A DNA stretch of 43,660 nucleotides from the NCBI GenBank assembly GCA_017450705.1, contig JAFSTC010000088.1, forward strand, positions 1 to 43,660. The letters run 5' to 3'. The notes below the pieces were generated by a model. It had not been told where the DNA came from and did not search any database. It saw nothing but the letters and a program-made list of their open reading frames with translations. Positions 1,522 through 7,228 of this stretch are shown here, piece by piece. The DNA is from Lentisphaeria bacterium. GTDB taxonomy: Bacteria > Verrucomicrobiota > Lentisphaeria > Victivallales > Victivallaceae. A program made the position numbers and the translations under genes. Numbering within the stretch: position 1 is the stretch's first letter; every line of letters starts with the position of its first letter.

Positions 1522-4287
1522 TCAGGACTCCTGTTTTTTCTGGAGCATGATTCCGGCGCCGATGATGATGGGGATCATGAGCGCCAGGACGGCGACGGGC
1601 TGGACGAGGTCGGCGAAGTACAGCGCCTTGTTGAAGATGCCGCGGGAGATGAGGAGCATGTAGGTGGTGGGATAGATGGTCCCGATGGCGCGGGCGATGC
1701 CCTCCTGGGTCTCGACGGGGGTGGTCATGCCGCAGAGCTGGGCGGAGGGGAGAAGCGTGCCCAGCATGGTGAGGAAGATGACGGCGATCTGGCTCCGGGT
1801 GACGGAGGAGGCCAGAAGTCCCATGCCGGTGGCGATGATGGCGTACATGACGGTGGCCAGGAGGAGGACGGGGAAGCTGCCCTTGACGGGGACGTCGAAG
1901 ATCGTGACGGCCATGACGGTGAGGAGGAGACTGCTCAGCACGGCGAAGAGGAGATAGGGGCACTGCTTGCCGAGGAGGAACTCCGTCCGGGTGAGCGGGG
2001 TCACGTAGAGGTTGATGATGGAGCCCATTTCCTTCTCACGGACGACGGAGAGGGCGGCGAGGATGGCGGGGATCATCAGCGTCAGAAGCGGGATCACCGC
2101 CGGGACCATGGCGGGCAGGCTGAGCACGTCCGGGTTGTAGCGGTAGCGGGTCTGGATGGAGACGTCCTTGAGTTTCCGCTTGGAGGGGGTCTTCGAGCGG
2201 GAGTCCAGCCACTCGTTGTGGATGGCCCTGACGTAGCTGTCGATGGTTTCGGCGCGGCTGGGCATGGAGCCGTCGACCCAGAAGGAGACGTCGGGACTTC
2301 TTCCCCGGTCCACGTCGCGGCCGAAACGGGGAGGCAGTTCGAGGACGAGGCTCAGCTCGCCGCTCTTCATCCGGCGGTCGAGCTCCTCGTAGGTATGGAC
2401 GGGGGGGTGCTCGGTGAAGTAGCGGGAACCGGCGATGTTCAGCATGTAGTTCTGGCTGGTGCGGGTATGGTCGCGGTCGAGGACGGCGTAGGAGAGGTTG
2501 TCCACATCCATGTTGATGCCGTAGCCGATGACGAACATGAGGATAAGGGCGCCGAAGAGGGCCAGCGTGGCGCGGATGGGGTCGCGCATGAGCTCCAGGG
2601 TCTCGCGCCAGAAGCAGCTGTACCAGCGCTGGAAGCTGAAAAACCGGCAGCAGCGGGGAGCCGAAGCGGGCGCGGCGGCGGCCGGGGTCTCCTCGGCGGT
2701 CTGGATGGCCTCTCCGGAGCGCTGGTTGGCCACGGGGTCGGCCTCTTCGAGAACGTTGATGAAGGCCTCCTCGAGGGTGGAGGTCCCCCGGGCGGAGATG
2801 ATGTTCTCGGGGGAGTCGCAGACGTAGGACTTGCCCGCGTGCATGAGGGAGATGCGGTCGCAGCGCCCGGCCTCGTTCATGAAGTGGGTGGTGATGAAGA
2901 TGGTCACCTTGTCCTTGCGCGAAAGTTCGATGATGAGCTCCCAGAAGAGGTCGCGGGCCACGGGATCGACGCCGGAGGTGGGCTCGTCGAGAATCAGGAT
3001 GTCCGGGTCGTGGATGACCGCGGCGGCCAGGGAGAGGCGCTGCTTGAGCCCCAGGGGCAGATCCTTGGGCAGGGCGTGCTCGATGTCGACGAGCTGGAAG
3101 CGGTCGATCATGCGTTTCACGCGGCCGGGGACCTCCGCTTCGGGGAGACCGTAAAGCCGGGCGTAGAGCATGAGGTTCTGCCTCACGGAGAGGTCGCCGT
3201 AGAGAGAAAAGAGCTGAGTCATATAGCCCAGATGTTTGCGGATCTCCATGGAGCCGCCGTCCACGGGCTTGCCGAAAAGTTCGGCGTGCCCCTCGGTGGC
3301 GGGCAGGAGTCCGGTGAGCATGCGCATGGTGGTGGTCTTGCCGCATCCGTTGGAGCCGAGGAAGCCGAAGATCTCGCCCCGGCGTATCTTGAAACTCACA
3401 TGATCGACGGCGGTGAAGGAACCGAATTTTTTGGTCAGTCCCTCGGCGACGATGGCGTAACCGTCTTCCTTGTCGCAGACGAGAGGCGGCACGGTCAGCT
3501 CCTTGTGGCCGGAGCGGCGGGACTCGGGCAGAAGCTGGATGAAGGCCGCATCGAGGTCGGCCTTTCCGGTCCGGGCCAGGATCTCCTCCGGCGTGCCGGT
3601 GGCGAGGATCTTCCCCTCGTCCATGGCGATCAAATCGTCGAAGCGCTGGGCTTCGTCCATGTACGCAGTGGCCACGATGACGCTCATCTGGGGCTGTTCC
3701 GCCTTGATGGAATCCACCAGATCCCAGAACTGCCGCCGGGCCAGGGGATCGACGCCGGTGGTGGGCTCATCGAGGACCAGCAGATCGGGGTCGTGGATGA
3801 GAGAGCAGCAGAGCCCCAGTTTCTGCTTCATGCCGCCGGAGAGCTTCCCTGCGGGACGGTCGAGAAAGGGGAAAAGTCCGGTGCTCTTGGTCAGACGGTC
3901 GATGCGCTTGCGGCGTTCCGCGGCGTCGTGGCCGAAAAGACGGCCGAAAAACTGCAGATTCTCCTCGACGGTCAGCGTGAAGTAAAGATTTTTGCCAAGT
4001 CCCTGGGGCATGTAGGCGATCCTGGGGCAGATGCGGTCGCGGTGCCCGGCGTCGCGCATGTCGCCGCCGAGAACGGTCAGCTCTCCCTGCTGGAGGGCAT
4101 GGGCCCCGGTGACAAGAGACAGGAGCGTGGACTTGCCCACGCCGTCGGGACCGATCAGCCCCACCAGACGCCGGGCGGGGATGTCGAGGGAGACGCCGTC
4201 CAAAGCCCGGACCTTGCCGTAGCAGAGGGTCAGATCCCTGAAGCTGACGACGGCGTCTTTGTTTTCCGCCGGGGAAGGCACGCTCAT
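1522..4287 (-). CDS. RbbA/YhiH-type fused double-ATPase ABC transporter and permease
   Basis: This 921-residue protein is close in length and layout to E. coli RbbA (YhiH): two ABC ATPase domains followed by an ABC-2 permease. The first Walker A is GPDGVGKS (46-53), followed by the signature LSGGMKQ and the Walker B region [13 protein letters not shown]. The second domain has GSNGCGKT near residue 310 and a degenerate signature, [10 protein letters not shown], which I recall as usual for the second domain of this family. The C-terminal third has an N-proximal membrane helix, an extracytoplasmic domain and several C-terminal helices. It overlaps the adaptor gene by four bases (ATGA). E. coli RbbA was named for ribosome binding, but the neighbours here support an export pump. 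The substrate is unknown. Confidence 0.9.
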
Positions 4288-5399
4288 TTTGCGCCGGCTC
4301 CGGGAGCCTTGGCAGCGGAGGCGGCCGGAGCGGCCGGGGCCTTGGCGGCCGGAGCAGCCGGGGCCTTGGCTGCAGGAGCGGCGGCTTTTGCGGCTTTTGC
4401 GGCCTTGTCGGCGGTGGCGGCGAGGGCTTTCCGGAGACGGAGAAATTCAGGCCACTCCACCTTGGGGTCGATCTTCACCCACGCCACGCCGGGCAGACCG
4501 GTCTTGACGATGTCGATGTACTTTCTGAGAAGCTCCGGCGGGATCGAAGCCTTGACGCGGAACATGAGCTTCTGCCGCTCGATCCGGGTCTCCACGGTCT
4601 TGGGGGTGAACTGGGCCTCGTTGGCGACGAAGGTGATCTTCGCGGGGATGGGGATCCCCGGCAGGGCGTCCAGCAGGATCCGGGCGTCGGCGCCGATGCG
4701 CACCTTGCCCGCGACCTCCTCCGGCAGGAAGAAGGTCATGTAGACGTCGGTCAGATCCAGCAGATTGACCACGCACCCGCCGGCGTCGAGAACTTCTCCG
4801 GGCTCGGAGACCTTGTACTGGATGCGGCCGTCGATGGGAGAGGTGAGGTTGCTGTCCTTGATGTCTTCCTCCCGGCGCCTCACGTCGGCCTCGGCGGCCT
4901 TGATGGCGGCTTCGGCCTGAACGACGGCGGCCTTGGCGGCGGCGAGCTCGGCGTCGGCCGCTTCGAACAGGGCCTTGTCATTGTCGAAATTCTGCTGGGA
5001 GGTGGCATTTTTCGAGACGAGGTACTCGGCCCTCTTGTAGCGGCGGTAGGCGTTGTCGCGGCTGCTGGTTTTCTGGAGGACGACGGCCTTGGCGGAGGCC
5101 AGTTCGGCCTTCTTCACCGCGACCATGGACTTGGCCTGGGCCAGCTGGGCTTCGAGGACGTTGGTCTGCATCTTGGCGATCAGCTGTCCCTTCTTCACGT
5201 AATCGCCGTCCTTGACGAGAACGCTTTCGATCTTTTCCGCCAGTTTGGTCGCAACATTCACCTCGGTCGCCTCCAGCCGCCCGTTGCCGGAGGCGAAAGC
5301 CGGATCGCGGTAGATGGCGTTGTCCACATAGGATTTGATGCTGTACAACGCCAGTCCGACGACGGCGACGACGATGAGGGCGATGACGATCTTCTTCAC
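4284..5399 (-). CDS. HlyD-family periplasmic adaptor, YhiI-like
   Basis: This 371-residue membrane-fusion protein should link the inner-membrane ABC pump to an outer-membrane channel. It starts with GTG, well placed after AGGAGG. Residues 1-22 form a single membrane anchor ([18 protein letters not shown]). A biotinyl/lipoyl-like half-motif ([20 protein letters not shown]) is followed by a long Ala-, Glu- and Lys-rich helical hairpin (about residues 85-180) and a second lipoyl-like half near [18 protein letters not shown]. The last 50 or so residues are low-complexity Ala-Pro-Lys repeats ([15 protein letters not shown]), an unusual tail for this family. It begins 36 bases after the fabZ-like gene in the same direction, so it is probably co-transcribed with the lipid A genes. 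Confidence 0.88.
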
Positions 5400-5435: not shown

Positions 5436-6353
5436 TCAGGCGTCAACGATGGCGAACATGAGGTTGATTTTGAAGACGGTCCTGCCGTCGACGCGCATCT
5501 CGCAGCCGCCGCGTCCGAAGCGGGATTTCGCCGGAGGCAGGATGAGGTCGATGATCAGCTGGTCGCCGGGATACACGGGCGCGACGGACTCGGCATGCTC
5601 GATGGCCATGAAGTAGCCGAGCTTGCCGGCGTTTTCGGGACGGGCCAGGACGCAGGCGCAGCCGGACTGGGCGGCGATCTCGCACAGGATGGCCTCGGGG
5701 AGCACCTGAAGCTTCGAGTTTCCGGAGAAGATCGGCTCGTTGCCGGTGACGTTCTTCACGGCGATGACCCGGTCGCCCTCCATGCTGGAAACGTAGTCGA
5801 TGAGCAGGAAGGGGAAGCGGTGGGGCATGAGTTCGACCACCCGGGAGATGTCCATGAGGACGGAATCTGTTTTGTCGTACTCGTTGAAATCGCAGGGCAG
5901 CGCCGCGGGAGAGGCGTCGATGGACCTCACGCCCAGGGAGACCACGGCCTCGCTGGCCACGCCCGACGCGGTGGCGATGGAGGTCTTCACCTGAGCGGAA
6001 TCGGCGCCGACCTCGAGGATCTCCGCGGAAATTTTGAGACGGTCGCCGGGGTTCGCCGGACGGCGGAACTTAACCTTGTTGGCCTCCTTCATGTAGACGT
6101 CGGCCTTGCCCGCGGGATCGAGACGGTCCCGGACGGCCAGCTCGGCCAGCTGCTTCATGGCTTCGAGCTGGAGCACGCCGGGCATGATGGGATGCCCGGG
6201 GAAGTGGCCCTGAAAGAAAGCCTCGTCCATGGAGGCGTTTTTGAAAGCGGTCCAGTGGGTTTCGTCGATCTGCTGCGCGCGGTCGAGCATGAGCATGGGG
6301 CTGCGCTGGGGGAGGACGGACATGATCTCCTTGAGGCCGAGGACTTTTTCCAT
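5436..6353 (-). CDS. Tandem hotdog protein, FabZ-like 3-hydroxyacyl-ACP dehydratase with degenerate second domain
   Basis: Two FabZ-like hotdog domains are fused in 305 residues, where ordinary FabZ is about 150. Domain 1 (1-145) has LPQRSPMLMLDR and the active-site stretch GHFPGHPIMPGV, with catalytic His50 and Glu64 in QLEAMKQ. Domain 2 (about 165-305) begins with the classic MPHRFPFLLID, but its active-site loop reads GNSKLQVLPEA. Asn212 replaces the catalytic His, one residue is missing, and Glu225 remains. Domain 2 has probably lost dehydratase activity or changed its reaction. The gene lies 29 bases after lpxC, as fabZ often does in lipid A clusters. AAGGA precedes the ATG. It may supply 3-hydroxyacyl turnover or act in a separate lipid pathway. 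Confidence 0.85.
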   Translation of the reverse strand: MEKVLGLKEIMSVLPQRSPMLMLDRAQQIDETHWTAFKNASMDEAFFQGHFPGHPIMPGVLQLEAMKQLAELAVRDRLDPAGKADVYMKEANKVKFRRPANPGDRLKISAEILEVGADSAQVKTSIATASGVASEAVVSLGVRSIDASPAALPCDFNEYDKTDSVLMDISRVVELMPHRFPFLLIDYVSSMEGDRVIAVKNVTGNEPIFSGNSKLQVLPEAILCEIAAQSGCACVLARPENAGKLGYFMAIEHAESVAPVYPGDQLIIDLILPPAKSRFGRGGCEMRVDGRTVFKINLMFAIVDA

Positions 6354-6382: not shown

Positions 6383-7228
6383 CTACTGATTGTTCTGCAT
6401 GTTCTTCAAAATCTCGCCCGCCATCTTGACGTTGGTGGGATGTCCGGGACGGATGGCGACGACCGCGCCGCGGATCCTTTTCCCCGTGAGATAAAGATCG
6501 CCGATGAGATCGAGGATCTTGTGACGCACGATCTCGTCGCGGAAACGCAGTTTTTCCTTGCAGATGATGGCGCCGTTGTGGATGATCGCCGCGGCGTCGA
6601 GACTGCCGCCCTTGACCAGCCCCATGGCGAGGAGCATCTTCAGGTCCTTGAAATCGACGAAGGTGCGGCCGGGGGCGATCTCCGCGCCGTAGCTCTCGGG
6701 ATCGAGGGTGTACTCCATGAACTGGGGATCGAAGGGACAGCCCTTGAAACTCGTGACGCAGGTGATCGTCAGCTTTTCGGGATCGGGGAAAATGACGATC
6801 TGCGAGTGATTGTTGACGACCCGCAGGGGGGCGGAGGGCGTGAAGAACGAAACGTCGGCGCTCTGCACGACCGTCCCGGCGGAGCGGATCAGCTCCAGGA
6901 AGGGAAGGCTGGAGCCGTCGCAGATGGGCGGTTCCTGACCGTCCATCTCCACCACGCAGTTGTCGATGCCCGAGGCGTGGAGGGCGGACATGATGTGCTC
7001 CACGGTGTAGACCACGGCCCGGCCGGAGGCGATGGTGGTGCCGCGCTGAACGTCGACCACGTTGGTGACGAAGGCCCGGACCTCGGGCTTGCCCTCCATG
7101 TCCACCCGGCGGAAGACGATCCCGGTGTTCTCATCCGCGGGCAAAAGATTCAGCGTCGCCCGGATCCCGGTGTGCAGCGCGATCCCGGAAAGACGGACTT
7201 TTTTCGCCAGAGTCTGCTGTTTTTCCAT
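6383..7228 (-). CDS. lpxC: UDP-3-O-acyl-N-acetylglucosamine deacetylase LpxC
   Basis: LpxC removes the N-acetyl group in the first committed step of lipid A synthesis, in the cytoplasm. Landmarks line up with E. coli within two residues: LHTG (19-21 region), zinc ligands His78 (TVEH), His236 and Asp240 (VRHKILD), catalytic Glu77 and general-acid His263 (PGH). The length of 281 is slightly short of the usual 300-305, with a shorter C-terminus. The stop is TAG. It is the first gene of a likely lpxC-fabZ-exporter operon read from a promoter at 7275-7302. Its presence indicates an LPS-bearing outer membrane. Confidence 0.95.
   Translation of the reverse strand: MEKQQTLAKKVRLSGIALHTGIRATLNLLPADENTGIVFRRVDMEGKPEVRAFVTNVVDVQRGTTIASGRAVVYTVEHIMSALHASGIDNCVVEMDGQEPPICDGSSLPFLELIRSAGTVVQSADVSFFTPSAPLRVVNNHSQIVIFPDPEKLTITCVTSFKGCPFDPQFMEYTLDPESYGAEIAPGRTFVDFKDLKMLLAMGLVKGGSLDAAAIIHNGAIICKEKLRFRDEIVRHKILDLIGDLYLTGKRIRGAVVAIRPGHPTNVKMAGEILKNMQNNQ

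Follow-up and report, generated by a model that had tools for sequence, protein, structure and literature searches.

The window, a 43,660-nucleotide contig of a Lentisphaeria bacterium (family Victivallaceae; JAFSTC010000088.1), contains on its minus strand an ATG-started open reading frame of 305 amino acids plus stop, which codes for a protein with two FabZ-like halves (domain 1, D1, and domain 2, D2; Table 1). Read on the plus strand, this interval encodes no FabZ. Two stretches of the protein match the PF07977 profile (E = 6.4e-33) and two match the TIGR01750 fabZ profile (E = 3.5e-60). These matches are far beyond chance and bear out the tandem FabZ-type protein proposed in a first-pass annotation of this DNA; His50, Glu64, Asn212, Glu225 and the PHR of PHRFPFLLID also lie where that annotation had put them. 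The whole protein scores 201.9 bits against a TIGR01750 cut-off of 155.15, whereas either half alone scores below it. The gene directly upstream gives an LpxC profile match (E = 2.6e-85) and codes for a separate 281-aa protein. LpxC and FabZ are thus separate open reading frames, both below the 465-bit cut-off of the NF009667 fusion model, and the tandem is a stand-alone gene beside lpxC, outside any type I megasynthase. Downstream lie genes for a HlyD-type adaptor and a two-ATPase ABC exporter. The adaptor (4284-5399, minus strand) possesses a long low-complexity Ala/Pro/Lys tail at its C-terminal end.

Table 1. Features of the tandem fabZ locus, in window coordinates
Feature	Position	Strand	Remarks
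Tandem FabZ gene	5436..6353	minus	Open reading frame; Pfam and NCBIfam profiles
Domain 1, residues 1-146	5916..6353	minus	Catalytic-His loop FQGHFPGHPIMPGV and KFRRP kept; PHR changed to PQR, tunnel residues gone
His50, putative catalytic base of the composite site	6204..6206	minus	Invariant, 109/109
Glu64, acid of the putative abandoned second site	6162..6164	minus	E in 94/109; A/T/G in 15
Linker between hotdogs, residues 147-162	5868..5915	minus	Model confidence lowest at 150-155
Domain 2, residues 163-305	5439..5867	minus	PHRFPF, ExxAQ, Leu236 and YFM kept (Glu side and tunnel); GHFP loop gone
Pro177-His178-Arg179, Glu-side motif of D2	5817..5825	minus	Invariant, 109/109
Degenerate D2 loop, residues 209-218 (FSGNSKLQVL), former place of second catalytic His	5700..5729	minus	
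Asn212, within the degenerate D2 loop	5718-5720	minus	
Glu225, putative catalytic acid of the composite site	5679..5681	minus	109/109; 114/114 with f33 rows
lpxC, directly upstream of tandem fabZ	6383..7228	minus	About 30 bases between reading frames

The source genome (3.97 Mb, 97.4% complete) contains two PF07977 matches, the tandem and a 139-aa protein on another contig, and nothing else; no FabA was found in it by this search. The 139-aa FabZ-like protein (L092:3881-4282, contig C109 of G000) is surrounded by ketosynthase-, thioesterase- and exporter-like open reading frames, as judged by eye from their translations, and the neighbourhood resembles an aryl-polyene-type cluster. Two proteins of this genome lie above the curated LpxA cut-off (C97:20939-21697 and C45:13101-13859; L204 and L205), and both sit off the contig of lpxC and tandem fabZ. 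We asked whether the tandem could have gained a second chemistry, such as a 3-decenoyl isomerisation of the FabA/FabN kind that leads to unsaturated fatty acids. The PF07977 result, with no FabA and only the tandem and the 139-aa protein, would suit such a gain, but the acid of the tandem is a FabZ-like Glu and not a FabA-like Asp, nothing positive points toward isomerisation, and we give this idea only a small chance. Alternative anaerobic pathways for unsaturated fatty acids were searched only through PF03060.

The occurrence of tandem FabZ was surveyed across the window's phylum. Named relatives of the tandem, at 57-87% identity, are Lentisphaeria or Victivallaceae MAGs. Matches were found in 58/60 genomes of a family-level draw and in 282/288 genomes of a phylum-level draw. 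Over both draws there are 115 genomes of the window's class, whose status was tallied from the match tables, and 106 of them carry the full-length tandem. Among the other nine, it is split by contig ends in two (G024 and G036) and weak in one (G209), and there is no tandem match in six (G032, G049, G189, G095, G214 and G229). One of these six, G095 (95% complete, three contigs totalling 2.0 Mb), gives a weak FabZ match (E 2.2e-8), and a tandem-length match is present in G306 of the same genus; G095 may have lost fatty-acid synthesis, or its assembly may contain a gap. With TIGR01750, 140 of 148 class genomes give a match and none exceeds the curated cut-off, compared with 9 of 14 controls that do. 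Farther out in the class, an extra single-domain FabZ-like open reading frame accompanies the tandem in G306 (166 aa), G311 (164 aa), G338 (208 aa) and G335 (186 aa). The first-pass annotation had named intact single-domain FabZ in close relatives as the observation that would count against it; we looked for this and found none among close relatives. In a separate observation, one class genome (G028, contig C11) contains a partial second copy of D2 at a contig end (L084; 106 aa, 54% identical to the window) as well as a full tandem. Among the genomes listed from outside the class, most have either one FabZ or a match that falls in an open frame, mostly of 441-574 aa, which is the size of an LpxC-FabZ fusion. 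Of 112 neighbourhood records, in which G177 is included and three genomes appear twice because they have two locus ids, 90 have an lpxC gene upstream of the tandem and 20, with at least 1 kb of sequence available, lack it; the other 2 were left unscored. In family f9, lpxC no longer adjoins the tandem and Glu64 is mostly lost.

Residue conservation was examined by aligning the window protein with 108 further tandem rows (109 in all), of which one, L152, comes from another class. Invariant positions in D1 include G49, H50, F51, P52, P58, G59 and Q68, and those in D2 include P177, H178, R179, P181, F182, E225 and L236 (all 109/109). Glu225 remains invariant at 114/114 once five further rows of family f33 are added. 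By contrast, the Glu64 column contains E in 94 rows, A in 13, and T and G in one each, and all 15 rows that lack Glu64 keep both His50 and Glu225. Losses of Glu64 fall in families f9 (10/11 rows), f10 (2/4) and f11, f13 and f14 (one row each), and require at least three changes on a tree from which that column was left out. The GHFP loop of D2 is hypervariable in sequence and length: H occupies the D2 His column in 4/109 rows and F the next column in 3/109, counts that include the two-site row L152, and the class rows with a stray D2 His lack the Phe-Pro that follows it in FabZ. The FabZ dyad of a GHFP-loop His and a central-helix Glu is found once per tandem, as His50 and Glu225 in separate halves.

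The first-pass annotation had read D2 as carrying Asn212 in place of the catalytic His. Loss of the GHFP loop together with its His is confirmed, but the exchange of Asn for His depends on the alignment; multi-domain alignments place a gap of the window at the D2 His slot and put Asn212 one column further on, at the Phe that follows the His. A conserved functional substitution by Asn212 is ruled out, as N occurs at that column in 3/109 rows, most of the others showing a gap or S, P, A or D, and Asp is found in the two nearest relatives (at 87% and 81% identity).

Loss of the loop raises the question of whether D2 is simply decaying after a recent duplication, in which case the tandem would have no special meaning. 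Apart from the hypervariable loop, the evidence runs the other way. The tandem is class-wide (106/115 genomes), many D2 positions are invariant, and no backup FabZ scores over the curated cut-off in any of the 148 class genomes. In two close pairs compared by a simple counting method, dN/dS is 0.175 for D1 and 0.116 for D2 (window versus L033), and 0.082 for D1 and 0.105 for D2 (window versus L036), synonymous sites being near saturation in the L036 pair. These values indicate that D2 is under purifying selection. Neutral decay of D2 is ruled out by the class-wide tandem and the D2 dN/dS, and the broader reading of a recent and meaningless duplication retains almost no credibility. A tree built from 34 of the 109 tandem rows and 17 of 29 other FabZ rows, a comparison set in which L052-L055 are near-identical so that counts are not independent, gives a D1 branch (100/99) and a D2 branch (100/98) and rules out that the tandem newly arose inside the window's genus.

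FabZ is known as a homodimer-based hexamer with two active sites per dimer. In the portion of PMC2692856 that describes Helicobacter pylori FabZ, each site consists of His58 and Glu72' of the other subunit within tunnels at the dimer interface, and Pro22, His23, Gly79, Phe83, Val99 and Phe101 line the pocket from the same subunit as Glu72, with Phe59 and Pro112 coming from its partner. We mapped this numbering onto D1 and D2 of 108 class rows. Positions on the Glu side are kept in D2: E at the Glu72 position in 108/108 rows of D2 versus 93/108 of D1 (Glu64), P at the Pro22 position in 108 versus 72, H at the His23 position in 108/108 versus 6/108 (7/109 in D1 when all tandem rows are counted), and F at the Phe101 position in 106/108 of D2 versus 0/109 of D1. 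The Phe83 position is Leu in all 108 rows of D2, and in D1 mostly R/K, also P/A and others. Conversely, the His58 and Phe59 positions are kept in 108/108 rows of D1 and are scattered in D2. Several positions are less one-sided or follow other trends: the door residue Tyr100 is Y in 77/108 rows of D1 and 56/108 of D2, Pro112 is retained in both halves (104 versus 94 of 108), and the Leu21 position is better kept in D1 (88 versus 10 of 108). As judged from these residues, the two halves have degenerated in opposite and complementary ways, leaving one full catalytic and tunnel set.

Next, the fold was predicted with AlphaFold2 from the window protein and five relatives. The model (mean pLDDT 82.8, pTM 0.83) is a double hotdog, and supplies the structure prediction that the first-pass annotation had suggested as a check. 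It holds two hotdogs in one chain as a predicted pseudo-dimer, with D1 packed against D2; His50 is placed in the loop that precedes helix 59-78, and Glu225 falls within helix 220-236. Foldseek ranks the DH chain of mammalian FAS first (2cf2_C, TMq 0.82), with PKS DH domains and double-hotdog thioesterases next, and single FabZ chains cover half the model (TMt of about 0.87 for those of 6n3p). With VIA-align, the product-template domain of PksA scores Z 21.5 (262 aligned, 4.0 A) and DH1 of PksJ Z 21.3 (255 aligned, 3.9 A). Top rows of this kind (product-template and DH domains) have Z of about 20-21 across model residues 8-305, and no ranking is made among tied rows. Because TesB-like thioesterases score close to the DH domains (Z of about 18-20), the fold alone leaves function unfixed, and it is the FabZ sequence that fixes it.

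Since His50 and Glu225 are invariant, Glu64 is lost in 15/109 rows and a FabZ site is built across the dimer, we consider it very probable that the protein is a fused FabZ pseudo-dimer with one composite site, formed by His50 of D1 and Glu225 of D2, and that the mirror site has been abandoned. The two hotdog halves of the chain would pack like the two subunits of an ordinary FabZ. Domain 1 would provide the catalytic-His loop, and D2 the catalytic acid Glu225 as well as the acyl-tunnel residues (Pro-His, Leu and Phe), so that each chain would have a single putative (3R)-hydroxyacyl-ACP dehydratase site. The mirror site, between the D2 loop and Glu64, would no longer be used. We infer that His50 faces Glu225, and likewise infer the enzyme activity, substrate and oligomeric state of the tandem. 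Against a purely composite reading stand the invariance of Gln68 in the Glu64 helix and the presence of Glu64 in 93/108 class rows, which indicate that the 'dead' site is still under some constraint.

The same two residues, together with a window D1 that keeps both His50 and Glu64 (94/109 rows having the latter), are what would be expected if D1 alone were the enzyme, with D1 pairing with D1' of another chain to form ordinary His50 and Glu64' sites and D2 acting as a regulatory or lipid-binding pseudo-dehydratase. However, the 15 rows without Glu64 still keep His50 and Glu225, and the invariance of Glu225, Pro177, His178, Arg179 and Leu236 (109/109) goes unexplained if D2 is non-catalytic. In addition, D1 has lost tunnel residues at the His23 and Phe101 positions, and in the model D1 has D2 of its own chain as packing partner. 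Pairing of D1 with D1' between chains is disfavoured, and D1 as the sole enzyme is improbable. The composite site thus remains the preferred reading, and it bears on the first-pass view of D2 as a pseudo-dehydratase half. That view gave each half its own site and so made D2 look inactive, whereas FabZ sites are shared between hotdogs; D2 would contribute the invariant Glu225 to the one site that is left, and would form most of its tunnel wall. The accompanying suggestion that D2 may shape substrate choice survives in the limited sense that D2 holds tunnel residues. A conserved function of the Asn, a separate lipid-binding half and a different catalysed step found no support here.

A tandem of another type was found in family f33, which belongs to another class of the phylum. 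In G177 (L152 and L170), a genome outside the window's class, D2 of the tandem reads SGHFPKHPIMPG and the His is present. Tandem FabZ occurs in 6/10 genomes of this family (further rows L176-L180). In all six, each half retains its His and Glu, and five of six keep the PHR His of D1; five of six genomes also match a separate FabZ-like open reading frame, that of G351 being a 109-aa fragment at the locus end. A tree of hand-picked rows (20 of 108 class rows, 6 from f33, 18 single and 8 LpxC-fused FabZ) places the D2 domains of f33 and of the class on one side of a branch (100/96). LpxC-fused FabZ is nearest to D2 among the rows tested (99/91), and the D1 domains of f33 and of the class join weakly (70/19). 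A common origin of both tandems is thus supported by the union of their D2 domains but not by that of their D1 domains, as far as this tree can tell. The two-site f33 tandem is a possible INTERMEDIATE and a plausible intermediate. Fusion first, with loss of the second site later, would fit the tree of f33 and the class, and transfer between lineages is also possible. On balance we lean toward a scenario in which type II FAS independently replayed the origin of type I DH domains: homodimeric FabZ would have been duplicated and fused into a two-site protein, and the stem lineage of the Lentisphaeria-type class would then have lost one site, which fixed the polarity of FAS and PKS DH domains, with His from the first hotdog and the acid from the second.

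No report of a tandem, double or duplicated FabZ, and none on FabZ of Lentisphaeria, was found in the open-access literature searched. Compared with ordinary FabZ (1u1z, 2gll and 6n3p), both halves match FabZ profiles and the His, Glu and tunnel set is present once per tandem; the difference is that one chain with two unequal halves takes the place of the dimer and probably possesses one site. HadAB, HadBC and hydratase 2 of MFE-2 are MaoC-type proteins. Like the tandem, they form an asymmetric hotdog pair with one catalytic site, according to passages of PMC4491049 and PMC2698920; as described there, His and Asp of HadAB both lie on HadB and the other half holds the substrate, whereas the tandem would split the dyad itself. 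In the FabA-like DH of PUFA synthases a degenerate half (a pseudo-domain) also pairs with a core half as a double hotdog, but this DH belongs to the FabA family, is part of a megasynthase, and its core half keeps both residues (parts of PMC9667614). The section on the FabZ subfamily in a survey of the hotdog superfamily names LpxC as the sole fusion partner (PMC516016). The LpxC-FabZ fusion (NF009667/PRK13188), described for Chlorobium in the same section, shares with the window the partnership of lpxC and fabZ, and its FabZ domain is nearest to D2; it differs in having one FabZ fused to LpxC, where LpxC of the window is separate and FabZ doubled.

The closest parallel lies in the DH and product-template domains of type I FAS and PKS (CurK, PksJ, PpsC and PksA PT), which are also the best structural matches to the model. 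They carry two hotdogs per chain, with His from the loop of the N-terminal hotdog and the acid, an Asp, from a helix of the C-terminal one, as set out in sections of PMC9135731. The conservation pattern of the tandem would fit this polarity, as predicted from sequence, with His in the N-terminal half and the acid in the C-terminal half. Identity to the tandem in structural alignment is 9-18%, however, and the tandem differs in its Glu acid, its FabZ loop HFPxxPxMPG and its position as a stand-alone gene beside lpxC. Most likely, the tandem is the housekeeping FabZ, reduced to one site and convergent with type I DH domains, and works like a type I DH double hotdog whose two halves share a FabZ-type dyad. 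It presumably carries out the usual dehydration step, and the novelty lies in architecture and evolution.

An essential enzyme known as a symmetric homodimer thus seems to have been replaced, class-wide, by an asymmetric single chain with half the sites. With a possible living intermediate in another class, it would provide a natural system for asking why only one site persists in double-hotdog dehydratases and whether the freed half alters chain-length or substrate control. It also points to an annotation trap, as the 'dead' half of a tandem of dimer-interface enzymes may contribute half of the one site that is active. If the proposed origin is true, its steps survive in living genomes, and the route from a symmetric dimer to an asymmetric single-site enzyme would be testable stepwise.
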